Under the pieces are notes generated by a model that searched no databases, was not told the DNA's origin, and saw only the letters and a program-made list of their open reading frames with translations. From positions 36,411 through 100,410 of IMG/VR virus record IMGVR_UViG_3300020156_000023: a DNA stretch of 64,000 nucleotides; one strand, given 5' to 3'. Made by a program: the position numbers and the translations under genes. This DNA comes from a virus. Position 1 is the first letter of the stretch, and each line of letters begins with the position of its first letter. Positions 4,842 to 54,340 of the stretch are shown here, one piece after another.

Positions 4842-6542
4842 TTATTTTATAGGTTCTAATGTTGTTATATCTAATTCTTTACCTTCTTTATTATAAAGCT
4901 TACCACCTACCCATTTATAATTCTTTTTGATAATACCATTCAGATATTTATCTTTAAGTTCTGTAGTAGGAAGATTACTATATATTGAAGTACTCTTAAC
5001 CTGTTCTTCAGTAACCTTACCAGTTAACTTACCATTCATCATATCTACTTCAAAGTTAGGATACATTTGATTAAGTACATTACCAGTAACATTCCTTGTT
5101 TTCATTTGATTAAGGTCTCTACCTGTTTTCTGTAATCCAGTTCCCATAGTAGAAATATCTGATGCCAGTGCTGTAAAGTAAGCATCTTTATCTGCCCTAT
5201 CAGCAGCATCTCTTTGAGCTTCACCTGACATAACCATTCTATCCTGGTCATTTTCCATCATAGCTTCCTGACCCAATATACTTGCTATCTGTTGCATGTA
5301 CTGATTGTATATCTGAGACCTTGTATTATTAACTCCCATATCAGTAGCTAAATCAAGTGCTCTCATAGTATTAATACTCCTTGCACCATTCCTACCTCTA
5401 TTTATTGTAGCATTCCTTGCTAATTCTAAATCTTGTAGTTGACTATCTCTTACTCCACTTGCAAACCCTTTAGTCTGGTCCATCTTATCAATACCCTCCT
5501 TTCCATAGTTAAGGAAAGGATTTATATTAGGAGTATCAGAAGCTCTCATATTATTAGTGTTCCTCATAGGCCCAAATGTAGAAACTAAGTTTCCAAATAA
5601 ACCTACTGCATCTCCTGCAGTTATATTTAAAGCACCCATCCATGGACTTGTATTATCTCCTGTTGAAGCAACACCTGTAGGATTAGTTGATGGACTATAA
5701 GTAGTAGCAGGAGTACCTGTAGTACTAACTCCATAATCCATTGCATTATTACCTGTATGGAAATCATCTGTAGTACCAGTCATATTAAGACTAGGGTTCA
5801 TACTTGAGAATAACTTATTCCAATCCATATTCATAGGAGGCCATCCTGCTACACCACCTGTAGCAAACTGCTCTGCCTCAGAAACCATCTTAGCAAGTTG
5901 CATTACAGCCATATCTGACTGTTCTTTCTTTTCATTATTAGATTGTAATCTCTTGAGTGTCCTTAGTAAAGTAGCATCATTAGGATTCTTCTCTAATTGT
6001 TTCTCTATCTTAGATATTTTCTTTTCTCTCTCCAGTTTCCTCTCAGCCATAGTTTTACCATCTGAGCCTTTTATCTTCTTAGAAAATATCTCAGTACCTG
6101 AAGGTACTACCATATCAATACCACCTTCAGCATGAGAAGGACCTTTTAAAGTTCCTACAGCACCATTAGGTGTTTCTATTACTTCTTCCCCCTCAGCATT
6201 AATGGCAGTAGGTATCCCTACCTTACCTCCAGTAGCAAAGGAGCCTTGTGCATTACCATATGCACCTAAGGCTCCTACTCCTGTTTGTAATAGATTACCC
6301 CAATTAAACCCTCCTGAAGAGATACCTTCTCCTGCAGAGGCTCCTTTATTCATCATAGAGCCTCCATACTGCATAGCTAAGTTTCCTAATACTTTAGTAC
6401 CCATAGCCCATGGATTATTACTACCTGCTGCTTTAGCTTGAGCTAAAGCTATATTAGCTTCTGCTAAGTCAACACCTGGATTAGTAACATAAGTACCAAA
6501 TTCAAATTCAGGAAGTTTAATTTTCTTTCTATTCTTTTTCAT
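4842..6542 (-). CDS. Tail or cargo structural protein, 566 aa
   Basis: A basic start (MKKNRKKIKLPEFEFGTYV) is followed by Gly/Ala/Met-rich low-complexity sequence. Around residues 105-170 lies a block containing SHAEGGIDMVVP and GTEIFSKKIKG, which I recognise as recurring in crAss-like structural proteins. A Lys/Glu-rich coiled-coil follows near residues 170-200, then a Ser/Thr/Asn-rich middle and a helical C-terminus. It lies 30 bp downstream of the 1910-residue tail gene and 1 bp before the next cargo-type gene. No enzymatic motif is evident. Role is inferred from position. Confidence 0.75.
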   Translation of the reverse strand: MKKNRKKIKLPEFEFGTYVTNPGVDLAEANIALAQAKAAGSNNPWAMGTKVLGNLAMQYGGSMMNKGASAGEGISSGGFNWGNLLQTGVGALGAYGNAQGSFATGGKVGIPTAINAEGEEVIETPNGAVGTLKGPSHAEGGIDMVVPSGTEIFSKKIKGSDGKTMAERKLEREKKISKIEKQLEKNPNDATLLRTLKRLQSNNEKKEQSDMAVMQLAKMVSEAEQFATGGVAGWPPMNMDWNKLFSSMNPSLNMTGTTDDFHTGNNAMDYGVSTTGTPATTYSPSTNPTGVASTGDNTSPWMGALNITAGDAVGLFGNLVSTFGPMRNTNNMRASDTPNINPFLNYGKEGIDKMDQTKGFASGVRDSQLQDLELARNATINRGRNGARSINTMRALDLATDMGVNNTRSQIYNQYMQQIASILGQEAMMENDQDRMVMSGEAQRDAADRADKDAYFTALASDISTMGTGLQKTGRDLNQMKTRNVTGNVLNQMYPNFEVDMMNGKLTGKVTEEQVKSTSIYSNLPTTELKDKYLNGIIKKNYKWVGGKLYNKEGKELDITTLEPIK

Positions 6543-6572
6543 TTTAATCTTAATTATTTTTAATATTAAAGT

Positions 6573-9500
6573 TTACCTGAAACTTTGCTGTTCATTCTCA
6601 GCTGAATAATTTGTAATTAACTTCTTATTTGATACTCCTGCAAAGTTATCAAATATCAACCTAACCACCAAATATTTATCTCTAAAACTTTCCAGTTCTG
6701 TCCATTCTTTACTATAGTTAAGAGTAGCTTCATTAAGAACCTTGTCTATATAGTAATCATCTTGTCTACTAATTATATTAGAGTCCCATATAGGAAGATT
6801 ATAATTAATCCTTATATCTCTTAGGTCATTAACTAACCAATCTTTCTCTACTTTATCTATCATGATATCGCCATCATTAAAATCTGTAGTCTGGTTCTTG
6901 AACCAATCCTGTTGATTAAAATCAGTATCTTTAACTTTAAGATTAAGAAGACCAGTACATTGCCTTGAATTATAAGCTATCATCTTATTGAAAGTAACAA
7001 ACCTTTCATCTACATAATCCTTAAACTCTTTATTATAACTCTTAGCTTCTGTAAGTAATCTAATATGGTTCCATAATCTTGTAATTAAAGGATTAGATAA
7101 AGATACATATTCTAATATGTGAGGAAAATACTGTTGATAGTATGTCTGGTAATCTCCTAACACATTGTGTATCCATATATTATCACTACCAGGAGTCCAT
7201 GAATAGAATTTCTCAGGTACATTCATATAGAATGAAGGTAAGTAAGAGTGCCATGATATCCAAGCATCTTGTTTTAATGAATAACTCATAGTCCAAGAGT
7301 TGTGTAATTCCATTGGGTCCTCTACTACTGTACCATCTATATATTTATATTCAGTATCTAAGTATTGCACTTCTACCTCTATCTCTCCTACACTTATTAT
7401 ATCTTCAAGTAATGCATTAATATCTGCAGCAAATTCTGCTGGTGTTATAATAACATCCTGCTCTCCTGCTATTACAGCTAAGTCATTCCTATCAGGTTTA
7501 ATGTACCAGTCATATGTTTCAAGTCCAGGTCCTAGTACACTGTAAGGGTTAGTAGCTAAAAGAGTATCTTTAACATTATTCCACTCAACTGTATCAAATA
7601 CTCCATTCACAGGTATAGCATCAGCCTCTGCTTCAGTGTAGGATGTACCTTTTATAGCTAACAATGACTGTTGTATAAAAGCCTGAGAGTTAGTATAAGG
7701 CCCACCATCTGTTGCTATAGGATAATTAATACCTATGAATGAGTTTAGTGATGGGTATGTTGTACTTGTAAATGTCGCATAGTCTGATATATATGTAGCT
7801 GTAGGTTGTCCATCTATAGGATTAGTAATAAGTGGTTGATGATAAGCAGCATTAGATTCATTACACAACGAGATAACTAATATGTCACCATTATGTGCAG
7901 GGTCTAGTGCAGCTTGTGTAGCAAAGTTAACCCATCTCTCCTGGGAGTTATCAATATGGTGTAACTTAGTCATACCTACATCCTCAGGCCTTAACTCCTC
8001 ATACCAATCAGTAACAGCAGTTTGTAATCCTTCAAGATATCCTGGAGCATTAAATGAACCTGAAGTATCATAGAATACATATACATGCGTATTATTAGGA
8101 AGTACTACTGTACCCTCTCTTATCTCAGTTTTTGTCTTAATAACATCCCTTCTGAATTTCATTCTACAATTCTCAAGACCTATATAGTTCCAACCCTCTG
8201 TAGCCTCATCTTCTATAATTTGATTGAAGTTAGGGAAGATAGTAATCTGTCCATCAAATACACACATCTCATAACCTGGTTGACCTACTACATCCTCAGA
8301 TAAAGTAAAGTCTTTCTTAGTGAATATCACTCTCTCTTTCTTAGTATCATAAGTAGAAATGAAACCAGACCCAAATAGATTAGAAGGATTGTCAGCATAA
8401 ATATATTCCTCTCCTGTTGTATTATAATATTGTTGGTCTACTATTAAACCTATATTTTCTTTAAACCAATTAGATAATCCCTGATTAGAAATAGCTCTTA
8501 GTTTCCTACCATCAAATTGATATATCTTTCTCTGATTTTCACATACAAAGAAGTAACCTAATGGAGTTTTAATAGCACTCCATTTATGTTGTATACCTGC
8601 AGATGAACCTGTATCATCATCTACTACTTTTTGAGGTGGTATCTCAAAATAAGAACCAGTTCCTATGAAGGAAACTATTTGGTCTGTAACCCTTTCCTGA
8701 TAGCTTCTTGGCATTTGCCATAGCCCTTCCAGAGTATGTATAAATAAATCATTACCTATTTTAAATAGGTTTTTAATCTCACCTGTCTCTCCTTCTATAT
8801 CTCTATAGTTATTAGGTAAGAATACTCTATAGTTATCTGTTAGTTCCTCCTGGAAACTTTGCTCTGAGTAATGTATCCTGTGTGGAAAATCTTCCATACA
8901 ATCTGTACAACAATCATATTCTAAAGGTAAGTGATAATAAAGCTTTTGCTTATTATACCTATGGTAATCTGGATTAACTTTATAGTATTCTCCCAAAGCT
9001 GCACCTAAGTATAACCTATTGTCATTCCTCGAAGAATCATACATAGTAAGCTTATTAGCTAAATGTTGTTCTAACCTGCTAACTGGATATCTTGAATCTG
9101 CCCTCTCGTACCATAAATCAAAGAACTCCCATATTACTTTAGGGTCATTATTACCTGACTCATACATACCTGGAGCATCCAGGAAAGTAGGTACATCTGA
9201 AATCATACCATGCCTTAGATGTGTATTAACTGAAGTATCAAACCATATATCAGTTAAACAATCTCCTATCCATTGTATCTCATCATCAGAAGGACCTGAA
9301 CCACCTTCATGTCCTGGCCTACCTTTACCATATTCTGACTGTACCCATGTATCTAATGAGGTTTCTCTAAGACCTTTATTGTATGCTTCATCATAAGCTT
9401 TTACCATAGCATCTCTTTCAAGTCCAGAAGATATAAATAAAGCTCCTGCTCCTATAAGAGATACACCTGCACCTATTACTATAGTAGATGCACCTGCAGT

Positions 9501-36047: not shown

Positions 36048-36567
36048 CTTCTTCTTGACTTAATTGGTCTAACATTAATAAATAATCTTCTTCTCTCATT
36101 ACTGCAATTTCAGTATGATTCTCCTGCATCCCTGTAGGAGTATTTGTATCTAATTCTTCTAAAACTGTTTCTAAACTATCTATATAAAAAGGTCTATATG
36201 ATGTAGGGTCTACATAGGTTATAGGGTCTATACCAAACACATATCTTCCTGCATTAGTAGGTTCTTGTGTTGTACACTTAAATAATCCATTTGGTATTAC
36301 CTTATACTTAAGTTTCTCAGAGTCTGGTAATATTGTATTACTTCTATAAATTATATTTCCTTCTTCATCTGTTTCAATCCATGTCTCTGTCACTCCCTCA
36401 TCTTCATCAAAGAATAGAACTGTTGAAGTATCAACTGGTAATGCTCTATCAAGACTATCTAATCTTACTCTTTCTTCATCTGTAAAGTCCCCAGGGTGTA
36501 CTCTGGAAGTTCTAATTAATGCATCCCTGAATTGAAATTGTACTAAATCCTGCATATTATTCTCCAT
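36040..36567 (-). CDS. Hypothetical acidic protein, 175 aa
   Basis: An acidic protein (MENNMQDLVQFQFRDALIRT) rich in Asp, Glu and Thr. It has a beta-rich middle (VFGIDPITYVDPTSYRPFYI) and an acidic C-terminus. It overlaps the winged-helix gene by 11 nt at its start and the next gene by 8 nt at its end. Function unknown. Confidence 0.55.
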   Translation of the reverse strand: MENNMQDLVQFQFRDALIRTSRVHPGDFTDEERVRLDSLDRALPVDTSTVLFFDEDEGVTETWIETDEEGNIIYRSNTILPDSEKLKYKVIPNGLFKCTTQEPTNAGRYVFGIDPITYVDPTSYRPFYIDSLETVLEELDTNTPTGMQENHTEIAVMREEDYLLMLDQLSQEEDV

Positions 36568-46842: not shown

Positions 46843-48534
46843 ATGTCAAAATCAAATTCAACATTAGCTGGTAAATTAGGTTCTATACAACCTAAAGAAG
46901 GTTTAGTAGCTGCTAATAATGTACCTACCCCAGACACTAAGAACATACAAGGGTATGATGCATATAAGCAAGATAAGTGGTTAAGATTGTTAACAATGCT
47001 TAATGTACTTAAACTACAACCACAATATTACAGAAGTGAGAGGACAGCACTACAAGAGTTACAAACTCTTATCAAAGAATGTGCTACTGAAGATGCATAC
47101 TTCACATGTCAGTGTATAGTATGGTCAAGATGTTTAGGGGAAGGTATGAGAACTATTTCTCATGCTGCTTCTGTATTTGTAGCACCATACATTTCAGGAC
47201 AAGAGTTCTCTAAGAGGTTCTATGGACCATGGAACAAGAAAGAGAAAAAAGGTGGTGTGATTTATAGGCCAGATGATATGAATGAGATATTACAAGGTTT
47301 TGTAGCTCTAAATGGAGAATACAAAACTACAACTGTAACAAATCATACTACTGGTGTTTCAGACACTCAGGTAGATATCTCAGGTACAAAGTTAACTAAT
47401 GCTATGAAGAAAGGATTTAAAGCAGCCATTGAGAGTCTTGACTCTTATTCATTGCTTAAGTATAAGTCCTCTCTGATAGATGTTATAAACCTTGTACATC
47501 CTAAATCATCAGACTCTCAGGCTACAGTAGAGGTGGATGGAGAAACTGTCTATACTATTGATGCTATAATGAGAGGAATGAATGTTTCTGCTAATACTTG
47601 GGAAGTAAACCAAGGAGAGGCAGGTCAAATTGTTTCTAAAGCTGTCAAGGAAGGTAAAATCACTGAAGAGGAAGCTAAAGAGGTATTAACTCAAGCTAAA
47701 GCAGATAATTGGGAAGAGATGCTTAATGAAGGTAAATTACCTATATTAGCAACTCTTAGGAACTTAAGGAACATCCTTAAAACTAATCCTAAAAGTGAAA
47801 CAATTAAGAAATTGTGTGAACTTGTATCTAATCCTACCTTGTTAAGACAAGGTAAGATAATGCCATATCAGATTGATATGGCTAATGAGATTATGCTTAC
47901 TGAGTTTAGTGGCTCTACTGCAAGGACTGTATCTAAAGCTTTAGCTGAAGGTTATGAACTTGCTGTGCCTAATTTAGCAGAGTTATTACCAGGTAATAAT
48001 GTAGTGTTCTTAGATATGTCAAACTCTATGACTTGGCATAAAGTTAGGGTTAATGGTAAAGAAGGCTCTACTACTCCTGCAGATAAAGCATGTCTTATTG
48101 CTGCAACTATAGCTAAGGCTACTGGAGCTGATATTATGATATTTGGTACAAGTGCTAAGTATGTACAATATAACCCTAATACGGATGTATTTACATTAGC
48201 TAAGCAATTGAATAATGCCAATATGGGTGGTACTGATTTATCTACAGCGTGGAAATTAGCTAAATCATCAGGTAGGAAATATGATAGAGTATTTATCTTA
48301 TCTGATAATGAGGTTAACACAGGAAATACCTATAATGCTTATAGGGACTATATGAGTAATATGGGTAATCCGTATGTATATTCAGTAGACTTAGCAGGAT
48401 ATGGTACTAATGCTATTGCTGGGGATAAAGTAAGGTATTATTATGGGTATGGATTTGCTATGTTTGATGATATAGCAACTTCAGAGTTCAATCCAACTCA
48501 TCACATTGACAAAGTAAAACAAGTAATAATTTAA
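46843..48534 (+). CDS. TROVE-domain (Ro60/Rsr-like) RNA-binding protein with vWA domain
   Basis: The N-terminal 330 residues are HEAT-like helical repeats of the TROVE type (RTALQELQTLIKECATEDAY, LRNLRNILKTNPKSETIKKL). The C-terminal part is a von Willebrand A domain with an intact metal site: DMSNS near residue 391, the Thr in MGGTDLS, and LSDNE. Ro60 proteins bind misfolded RNAs and Y RNAs, and bacterial Rsr works with tRNA-like YrlA RNAs and PNPase. It is the last large gene before the tmRNA/tRNA cluster, so a role in RNA quality control or with the nearby structured RNAs is plausible. Confidence 0.88.
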   Translation: MSKSNSTLAGKLGSIQPKEGLVAANNVPTPDTKNIQGYDAYKQDKWLRLLTMLNVLKLQPQYYRSERTALQELQTLIKECATEDAYFTCQCIVWSRCLGEGMRTISHAASVFVAPYISGQEFSKRFYGPWNKKEKKGGVIYRPDDMNEILQGFVALNGEYKTTTVTNHTTGVSDTQVDISGTKLTNAMKKGFKAAIESLDSYSLLKYKSSLIDVINLVHPKSSDSQATVEVDGETVYTIDAIMRGMNVSANTWEVNQGEAGQIVSKAVKEGKITEEEAKEVLTQAKADNWEEMLNEGKLPILATLRNLRNILKTNPKSETIKKLCELVSNPTLLRQGKIMPYQIDMANEIMLTEFSGSTARTVSKALAEGYELAVPNLAELLPGNNVVFLDMSNSMTWHKVRVNGKEGSTTPADKACLIAATIAKATGADIMIFGTSAKYVQYNPNTDVFTLAKQLNNANMGGTDLSTAWKLAKSSGRKYDRVFILSDNEVNTGNTYNAYRDYMSNMGNPYVYSVDLAGYGTNAIAGDKVRYYYGYGFAMFDDIATSEFNPTHHIDKVKQVII

Positions 48535-49665: not shown

Positions 49666-50041
49666 GGGGGTGACTGGTTTTGACAGCTAAGAGTAGGTAA
49701 TAATATTCAGCAGTCAGTGATGACTTAAAACATTGAAGGTGAAATAATTAAATGGCAACATTGATAATACACAAGTAGAAGCTAACATGACTGTAGTACA
49801 CAACATATTAAATGGTGGTTCGTATGAAGGTCAACTCAAAGGAGAAGATGATTTAGTTACATCTAAAGGAACTTTTGTTAAAACAAATATGTTAGTAGCT
49901 GCCTAAGCTATAAATAGAAGAACACAACACATAGGGATTATGGATTACTAATGTTCCTCTCAATACATTAGAACAATAAGCTGTATACAATATTATTAGT
50001 TGAAAATAGTTTGGACAGGAGTTCGACTCTCCTCACCTCCA
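49666..50041 (+). tRNA. ssrA: Transfer-messenger RNA (tmRNA), phage-encoded
   Basis: The 5' end GGGGGTGACTGGTTTTGACA and the 3' end with T-arm AGGAG-TTCGACT-CTCCT followed by CACCTCC and A fold into a tRNA-like domain with a perfect 7-bp acceptor stem, including the G3-U70 pair that specifies alanine. The terminal CCA is not encoded. Inside, after TAGTA at 49794-49798, an open frame of 35 codons (49799-49903) ends in ...NMLVAA and TAA (49904-49906). The tag is unusually long; the resume codon is inferred. tmRNA rescues stalled ribosomes with SmpB and tags the product for proteolysis. Confidence 0.9.
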
Positions 50042-50046
50042 CAAAT

Positions 50047-50122: not shown

Positions 50123-50209
50123 TAAAGAGTAGTAACACATAAGATACTTCGAAATCAAATTTTTACTTTGGCAATTCAAAAAACAATCTTATGTAATTTT
50201 CTCTCTTTA
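50123..50209 (+). ncRNA. Copy of the RNA element that flanks the permuted tRNAs, here without a tRNA
   Basis: Outer helix TAAAGAG/CTCTTTA (50123-50129 with 50203-50209), internal loop TAGTAAC opposite AATTTTCT, inner helix ACATAAGA/TCTTATGT (50137-50144 with 50187-50194), then TACTTCGAAAT on the inside and an A-rich end. This is the same order of parts as at 51278-51420 and 54181-54335. The enclosed 35 nt do not form a tRNA. It may be an empty or decayed copy. Confidence 0.65.
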
Positions 50210-50484: not shown

Positions 50485-50489
50485 CACAT

Positions 50490-50697
50490 AGAGTGGTTAG
50501 GAATAGGTTACTTCGTAAACAATATAAAGGCAGAGTCTTAGGACTCAGAGACTATATAAGTTTCAATTAACTACGTGTAGTAACACGTTGCGAAATGAGG
50601 TTAACTTATGGGTTACTTCAACTATAAGGGAAGTTATACTCCCTAAGAGTATAATGGTATGGCATTATCTATACAACCCTATTCCTTCATTCCCTCT
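50490..50697 (+). ncRNA. Structured RNA in the tRNA array, possible diverged copy of the TACTTCG element
   Basis: The 219 nt between tRNA-Arg and tRNA-Asn hold no gene. AGGAATAGGT (50500-50509) pairs with ACCCTATTCCT (one bulge, 50677-50687), and TACTTCGTAAAC follows the 5' strand exactly as in the permuted-tRNA element; AGAG/CTCT could form the outer helix. Inside are hairpins GAGTC-TTAG-GACTC, ACGTGT-AGTA-ACACGT and TTATACTC-CCTAA-GAGTATAA. No T-arm is present, so the insert is not a tRNA. Confidence 0.5.
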
Positions 50698-51277: not shown

Positions 51278-51420
51278 AATACTAATAGTAAGACATTAAG
51301 TTACTTCGCAACACTTTTAATGTTAAGGTCATAGGTTCGAATCCTATACTATGTTTATACATGGTTAGCTCAGTTGGTAGAGCATAGAAAAATACACTTA
51401 AAGTCAAGTTCTTTAGTATT
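51278..51420 (+). tRNA. Circularly permuted tRNA-Lys (UUU) gene, 3' half before 5' half
   Basis: The 3' half comes first: AACA-CTTTTAA-TGTTA, AGGTC, T-arm ATAGG-TTCGAAT-CCTAT, ACTATGT, T (51310-51355). After a 3-nt linker comes the 5' half ACATGGT-TA-GCTCAGTTGGTAGAGC-A-T (51359-51385). ACATGGT pairs with ACTATGT over all 7 positions, and the T at 51385 completes the anticodon stem (TAACA/TGTTA). Joined, they give a normal 73-nt tRNA-Lys. Flanks: outer helix AATACTAA/TTAGTATT, loop TAGTAA, inner helix with TTAAGT/ACTTAA, then TACTTCG. A second, ordinary Lys(UUU) tRNA exists at 51911. Confidence 0.8.
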
Positions 51421-53408: not shown

Positions 53409-53501
53409 GCCAGGGTAACTCAGGAAGATTAGAGTGCCTAACATATATTAGGAGTAAAATCTTAAGTTAGGAAGTCGGAGGTTCAAGTCCTTCTCCTGGT
53501 A
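53409..53501 (+). tRNA. Atypical tRNA with enlarged anticodon region, identity unclear
   Basis: Acceptor GCCAGGG/TCCTGGT, D-arm ACTC...GAGT and T-arm GGAGG-TTCAAGT-CCTTC are normal. Between them CCTAAC could pair with either TTAGG (53449 area) or GTTAGG (53466 area), leaving an insertion of about 18 nt containing GAGTAAAATCTTAAG. No 7-nt loop with U33 results from a simple excision that I could find. The same GAGTAAAATCTT..GTTA string occurs in the insertion of the tRNA at 54002. Confidence 0.6.
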
Positions 53502-53515
53502 CAAATACATATTAT

Positions 53516-54001: not shown

Positions 54002-54159
54002 GCGCGAGTGGCTGGTTGGAATAAGCGAGTAGGTTGCAAGCCTACTGGATATCTGAAAAGAGTTTATAATGATAATATTAAACAGAAAAAGAGTAAAATC
54101 TTGGGTTAATAGTATAGTTATAAATCGTGTCCATGGAGGTTCGAATCCTTCCTTGCGCT
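54002..54159 (+). tRNA. tRNA-Cys-like (GCA) with about 85 nt inserted in the variable region
   Basis: Acceptor GCGCGAG/CTTGCGC, anticodon loop TTGCAAG on GTAGG/CCTAC, T-arm GGAGG-TTCGAAT-CCTTC. Between anticodon and T arms GGATA pairs with TGTCC, and in its loop lies an insertion with hairpin TCTG...GTTTA/TAAAC...CAGA and the string GAGTAAAATCTTGGGTTA. The D-region resembles Leu tRNAs. A normal tRNA-Cys exists at 55676, so this copy may be degenerate, or the insertion may be removed. Confidence 0.65.
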
Positions 54160-54180: not shown

Positions 54181-54335
54181 AACAGTAGTGATAGTTAAGT
54201 TACTTCGAAATCCATCACAAGGAAGAGATTGTCAGTTCGAGTCTGGCCCCCTGCACTAAATATAACGTCATGCAGGGGTAGGGTAATTGGTTAGCCCGCT
54301 TAAAAGAAAACAACACTTAACTTATATTCTCTGTT
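54181..54335 (+). tRNA. Circularly permuted tRNA-Val (CAC) gene, 3' half before 5' half
   Basis: The 3' half, 54212-54255, reads CC-ATCACAA-GGAAG, AGATT, T-arm GTCAG-TTCGAGT-CTGGC, CCCCTGC, A. A 16-nt linker follows, then the 5' half GCAGGGG-TA-GGGTAATTGGTTAGCCC-G-CTT (54272-54301). GCAGGGG/CCCCTGC is a perfect acceptor stem, and CTT+CC pairs with GGAAG only when halves are joined, giving a 74-nt tRNA with anticodon CAC, U33 and A37. Flanks: outer helix AACAG/CTGTT, loop TAGTGAT opposite TATATTCT, inner helix AGTTAAGT/ACTTAACT, then TACTTCGAAAT. Confidence 0.85.
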
Positions 54336-54340
54336 AATTT

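Follow-up and report, generated by a model that had tools for sequence, protein, structure and literature searches.

A probable phage Y RNA with a permuted tRNA-Val(CAC)-like domain in the tRNA array of a crAss-like phage

The Val element and its genomic setting

We analysed a stretch of viral DNA of 64,000 nucleotides (nt), referred to below as the window (IMG/VR record IMGVR_UViG_3300020156_000023, positions 36,411 to 100,410), in which the 3' half of a transfer RNA (tRNA) with a CAC (Val) anticodon is encoded ahead of its 5' half. This element, hereafter the Val element, lies within an array in which ARAGORN identified one transfer-messenger RNA (tmRNA) and 24 tRNAs. The genome belongs to a crAss-like phage: the major capsid protein shares 58.5% identity with its counterpart in Flavobacterium phage FpV4, and other matches of this protein include Bacteroides and CrAssphage records. 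A first-pass annotation had described the locus as a circularly permuted tRNA gene of a crAss-like phage, spliced via a circular precursor. The permuted fold holds and recurs in related phages, but its processing into a tRNA through a circle is unsupported, and the evidence presented below points to a Y RNA.

The array is headed by an ordinary one-piece tmRNA gene (49666-50044; Rfam 67.8 bits). An open reading frame for a Ro60/TROVE protein ends about 1.1 kb upstream of it, so that the genome encodes, close to the Val element, the Ro60/Rsr gene that usually adjoins Y RNAs. The predicted protein contains vWA_Ro60 (8.4e-10) and TROVE (1.1e-6) domains according to Pfam and matches Ro60 structures in the PDB by sequence. 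The best PDB matches of its AlphaFold2 model (predicted local distance difference test, pLDDT, 81) are Ro60/Rsr proteins (E about 1e-14), with the Ro60 of Thermus phage phiLo (9L5Y) among the fold matches. The TROVE/Ro60 gene is encoded in G000 and in all four relatives, G001-G004.

The Val element is bounded by a stem of 8 base pairs (bp), formed by AGUUAAGU and ACUUAACU, which the first-pass annotation had overlooked. Unpaired strands of 11 and 13 nt separate this stem from the two tRNA halves. The 3' half includes the T arm (54231-54247), the acceptor 3' strand CCCCUGC (54248-54254) and discriminator A (54255), and the 5' half consists of the acceptor 5' strand GCAGGGG (54272-54278), UA, the D arm (54281-54297) and G-CUU (54298-54301). 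The G/C acceptor stem pairs at 7 of 7 positions, and the rejoined halves give the anticodon arm CUUCC-AUCACAA-GGAAG with U33, CAC and A37; both features had been read correctly at first pass. The further claim that the anticodon stem exists only if the halves are joined was overstated, as UCC-AUCACAA-GGA is a local 3-bp hairpin within the 3' half, and CU(U) is able to pair with AG without ligation. When halves were swapped between elements of the family described below, a 5/5 anticodon stem formed in 97 of 182 pairings, and this stem is thus weak evidence for joining when taken alone.

The minimum free energy fold of the unjoined Val element (-37.1 kcal/mol, RNAfold) consists of an outer stem, the 8-bp Y stem, the T arm, an 8-bp acceptor and the D arm. 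Its shuffle z-score is just -1.7, and therefore the fold by itself is no proof. A scan of the window for the permuted architecture returned three places, namely the Val element, a second genuine case at 51336/51359 (the Lys element of Table 1) and one incidental match within an ordinary tRNA-Cys. None appeared when the whole window was dinucleotide-shuffled 60 times, which rules out a chance origin of the arrangement. The 13-base flank TTAAGTTACTTCG has exactly two copies in the 100-kb genome, each preceding a permuted 3' half (Val and Lys). We detected no Rfam match to a Group I/II intron or ribozyme in the Val flanks at a relaxed threshold. A search of IMG/VR with the Val 3' half gave no exact relatives, and the sole match in a DNA similarity search against named phages was an unrelated tRNA.

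Table 1. Parts of the Val element, sister elements and the presumed protein partner (window coordinates)
Feature	Position	Strand	Basis or remark
Whole Y RNA-like element with permuted tRNA-Val(CAC)-like domain	54181..54336	+	Fold and conserved family
Y stem 5' strand AGUUAAGU	54193..54200	+	8/8 pairing with 54315-54322; covariation across elements
Conserved core UACUUCG, immediately 3' of Y stem 5' strand	54201..54207	+	Common to all family members
Anticodon hairpin UCC-AUCACAA-GGA (anticodon CAC, U33, A37)	54211..54223	+	Homologous hairpin in distant phages L065 and L059
T arm, acceptor 3' strand and discriminator	54231..54255	+	Read directly
16-nt linker closing acceptor stem	54256..54271	+	16-19-nt linkers recurrent in Val-type subclass
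Acceptor 5' strand, U8A9, D arm and CUU	54272..54301	+	Read directly
Y stem 3' strand ACUUAACU	54315..54322	+	Pairs with 54193-54200
Second Y RNA-like element, permuted tRNA-Lys(UUU)-like domain, acceptor closed by 4-nt loop	51284..51424	+	Rfam YrlA 34.9 bits, E 2e-6
Y element with same stem and core, without tRNA domain	50124..50208	+	Short insert
Y element with structured insert of about 170 nt, without tRNA	50489..50696	+	Homologues in L002 (4122) and L004 (4878)
Ro60/TROVE protein, 563 residues, presumed partner	46843..48534	+	Pfam, PDB sequences, predicted fold

A family of stem-bounded elements

The Val element and its sisters in the window (Table 1), which lie between the tRNAs of the array, share a common frame. 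It runs from GUAGUAA through an 8-nt stem strand, UUACUUCG, the insert, an A-rich stretch and the complementary strand to a U/C-rich box that closes an outer stem, and its terminal stem has the consensus GUAGUAA-N8-UUACUUCG / N8-A/U-rich-UUCUC. Homologues of the sister with the long structured insert sit between tRNA-Arg and tRNA-Asn in L002 and L004.

Searching with the pattern GTAGTAAN{7,10}TTACTTCGNAA, we retrieved 42 IMG/VR stretches. TROVE was found in 21 of the 25 contigs with a good complementary stem, versus 2 of the 17 without one (Fisher p = 4e-6). A perfect 7/7 Watson-Crick partner was present within 130 nt at 15 of 75 distinct motif sites, where 0.9 would be expected with stems swapped between elements. 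Across 40 fully paired elements, at least two pair types occur in each of the seven stem columns, and this covariation, together with the 8-bp stem of the Val element, identifies the paired RNA ends as a conserved feature of the kind found in Y RNAs. In bacterial genomes the stem motif had 5 matches among 84,980 species, none of them member-like and near chance expectation.

After two double readings were dropped, we counted 26 permuted tRNA-like elements, and the acceptor stem pairs at 6-7 of 7 positions in every one of them; the halves are thus kept complementary in related phages. The anticodon arm lies in the 3' half and the stem leaves at the anticodon stem in 14 elements, including the Val and Lys elements of the window; the other 12 have the anticodon arm in the 5' half, with the stem leaving at the variable loop. 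Another 14 tRNA-like Y elements are in ordinary order, all with U33 and a purine at 37 and all but one (13/14) with a perfect 5/5 anticodon stem. In place of an acceptor, several of these have an additional hairpin or a 4-bp acceptor remnant at their end. More than 30 family members have no recognisable tRNA. The permuted, ordinary-order and tRNA-free elements span crAss-like and jumbo phages, and permuted elements occur in phages whose Ro60 is down to 36-38% identical to that of the window.

Ordinary-order elements in which the Y stem is an internal arm and the acceptor is open were identified in L001 (4640-4775), L002 (5103-5228) and the cultured phage crAss001 (MH675552, L026). Those of L001 and L002 have the acceptor GGGGAAG/CUUCCCC, no D arm and the Y stem as an internal hairpin. 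The crAss001 record has Y-type stems after TROVE gp96 (5910-6700), two of them within tRNA-like sequences (6083-6230 and 6337-6480) that are unannotated in the record. The positions of the Y stem vary among crAss001, L001, L002 and the permuted elements, and we therefore recognise one composite fold, a tRNA body with a Y stem, in which the ends are placed differently. In phage csAssE-Sib, the annotated tRNA-Lys (L028 11775-11848) is enclosed by a Y stem, and its acceptor stem pairs poorly; this sequence is probably a Y RNA and not a tRNA. Caution is warranted more widely, as tRNA finders score some Y elements as tRNAs.

Two other unusual tRNAs are encoded in the window. The tRNA-Cys(GCA)-like gene at 54003-54158 has a 7/7 acceptor and about 90 nt extra in its variable region. 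The tRNA at 53409-53502, called '???' by ARAGORN, has an insert around its anticodon arm. The two genes have GAGTAAAATCTTnnGTTA in common, as well as the GTAAAATCTT motif.

A Y RNA or a precursor of tRNA

Given the analyses presented above, we propose that the Val element is a phage-encoded Y RNA, with a stem that binds the phage Ro60 and a tRNA-mimic domain as its effector end, and place the probability of this reading at about 0.82. Judging from sequence, the Ro60 (TROVE) protein of the phage itself is very probably the ligand of the Y stem, and the genome is best read as encoding four or more Y RNAs that differ in their effector ends. The two RNA ends would pair into the stem that tethers Ro60, and the T arm, closed acceptor stem, D arm and anticodon arm would form the tRNA mimic. 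As the stem exits the tRNA body at a point between D stem and anticodon stem, the mimic would have to be encoded in permuted order; no splicing of the Val element would be required, and transcription would be as one unit. The tRNA-free elements of this array are flanked by the same stem and core. Moreover, several relatives retain an anticodon arm without a tRNA acceptor end, and therefore those relatives cannot be tRNA genes. We speculate that the Ro60-Y particle would most likely present or bind tRNA-acting enzymes. It may divert host anticodon nucleases or tRNA enzymes by acting as a decoy or, alternatively, provide a scaffold similar to that of Ro60-Y-PNPase.

Several observations weigh against this proposal. 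The Val element has no Rfam YrlA match, and no match in the family attains the Rfam gathering score. The four contigs with a good stem that lack TROVE also count against it, although contigs may be fragments. Finally, the discriminator of the permuted elements is still followed by C, and in some cases CCA is present, as in ordinary tRNAs; a pure mimic would have no need of either.

The same retained C and occasional CCA, together with the 16-19-nt linkers of one subclass, would fit a genuine circularly permuted tRNA gene. On this reading the Y-like flanks would serve as a scaffold for processing, ligation of the halves would take place at the anticodon stem, and subsequent cleavage of the circle within the linker would release a functional tRNA-Val(CAC). 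The 3' half does come first and the cloverleaf is complete once joined, complementarity of the halves is kept in all 26 permuted elements, and of the 14 whose 3' half contains the anticodon arm, 12 form a 5-bp stem with a 7-nt loop and U33 on rejoining. In L046 and L052, which have 37-38 other tRNAs, the UCC (Gly) anticodon was found only in a permuted element. Anticodon redundancy is nevertheless a mixed test of tRNA function, with an ordinary tRNA of the same anticodon for 14 of 29, and the window already encodes ordinary tRNA-Lys(UUU) and tRNA-Val(UAC). Searches of four phage records detected neither a tRNA-splicing endonuclease nor RtcB (PF01974, PF01139), and an RNA ligase (PF09414) gave a weak match in one relative only; the PF09511 search returned no signal, controls included. 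On inspection, the junction contains no bulge-helix-bulge (BHB) motif, that is, no 4-bp helix between 3-nt bulges. The break site differs among elements, falling in the anticodon stem or the variable loop, acceptor loops are as short as 3-4 nt, the anticodon-stem test separates own from swapped halves poorly, and the 11- and 13-nt strands between stem and halves are also conserved in tRNA-free elements. With flanks common to tRNA-free elements, Ro60 encoded nearby and none of the splicing components above, the circular precursor suggested at first pass finds no support, and we consider a permuted tRNA gene of this kind unlikely. There is a small but real chance that the permuted elements are both Y RNAs and tRNA precursors, matured into working tRNAs. 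If so, they would be the first permuted tRNA genes in bacteria or phages and would reveal a new, BHB-independent route of tRNA splicing.

Alternatively, only the acceptor linker may be cut, leaving a two-piece tRNA-like RNA whose strands are held together by stems, as in permuted tmRNA, and bound by Ro60. The intact discriminator-C and long linkers of one subclass are consistent with this, as are the open acceptor ends of the ordinary-order members with an internal stem in L001, L002 and crAss001, but many members have acceptor loops of 1-5 nt or no acceptor, and we regard such a product as quite doubtful. Functionless debris of tandem tRNA duplication or recombination might be anticipated in a tRNA-rich array, where duplication and deletion could yield a 3' half followed by a 5' half. 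However, 26 distinct elements share the fold and maintain its flanks, core and stem pairing, across phages with Ro60 as divergent as noted above, and this origin is highly improbable.

Few functions are known for bacterial Ro60 proteins and Y RNAs. If the Val element and its relatives are Y RNAs, a phage lineage that includes crAss-like phages encodes a Ro60 of its own together with arrayed Y RNAs built into tRNA bodies with many anticodons, interleaved with real tRNA genes. This would direct the role of phage Ro60 toward tRNA biology, either as decoys for anticodon nucleases and tRNA enzymes or in tRNA quality control. Cultured crAss001, with related elements adjoining its TROVE gene, offers a system in which these ideas can be tested.

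Comparison with known systems

Permuted two-piece tmRNA is a bacterial permuted tRNA-like RNA, in which the acceptor halves are split by a removable linker. The phage elements differ in having no tag reading frame, and the tmRNA of the phage itself is one-piece. The known permuted tRNA genes number 34, in six algae and one archaeon. Their junctions carry a BHB motif, and their linkers span 1-74 nt (PMC3978253). Those of algae and Thermofilum resemble the phage elements in that the 3' half comes first and the acceptor is closed by a linker, but they have BHB motifs and a splicing endonuclease, neither of which was found for the phage elements, whose junction instead bears the conserved Y-type stem.

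Ro60 has been described from Thermus phage phiLo (9L5Y), crAss001 (TROVE gp96) and jumbo phages (PMC7824862, PMC10136315), that is, the same protein family in the same kind of virus. Y RNAs have been reported from mycobacteriophages in work cited in PMC12282133. We found no description of tRNA-bearing Y RNA arrays in the literature open to search.

A close likeness is seen with YrlA, a bacterial Y RNA (RF02553; PDB 6CU1) in which Rsr is tethered by a terminal stem and a further domain imitates the D, T and acceptor arms of a tRNA (PMC8394870). The Rfam consensus of YrlA has the same permuted order as the phage elements (T arm, acceptor, loop, acceptor, UA, D arm), and YrlA is likewise encoded beside a Ro60/Rsr gene. 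Rfam matches in this order were obtained for the Lys element of the window (51313-51407) and for L001 (8297-8417, 42.3 bits). L001 and L004 (8150-8300) carry a YrlA-type permuted tRNA-like element without an anticodon arm alongside the new type. Both scores are below the gathering score of 69 bits and the Val element has no match, and for this reason we do not file it as YrlA. The phage stem is of another sequence (GUAGUAA...UUACUUCG), and the phage elements occur several per genome, between tRNA genes. Their domain also includes a feature that YrlA lacks according to PMC8394870 and the Rfam consensus, namely an anticodon arm, which has a plausible anticodon and U33. By analogy, the Val element would work like a Y RNA to which an anticodon arm has been added.
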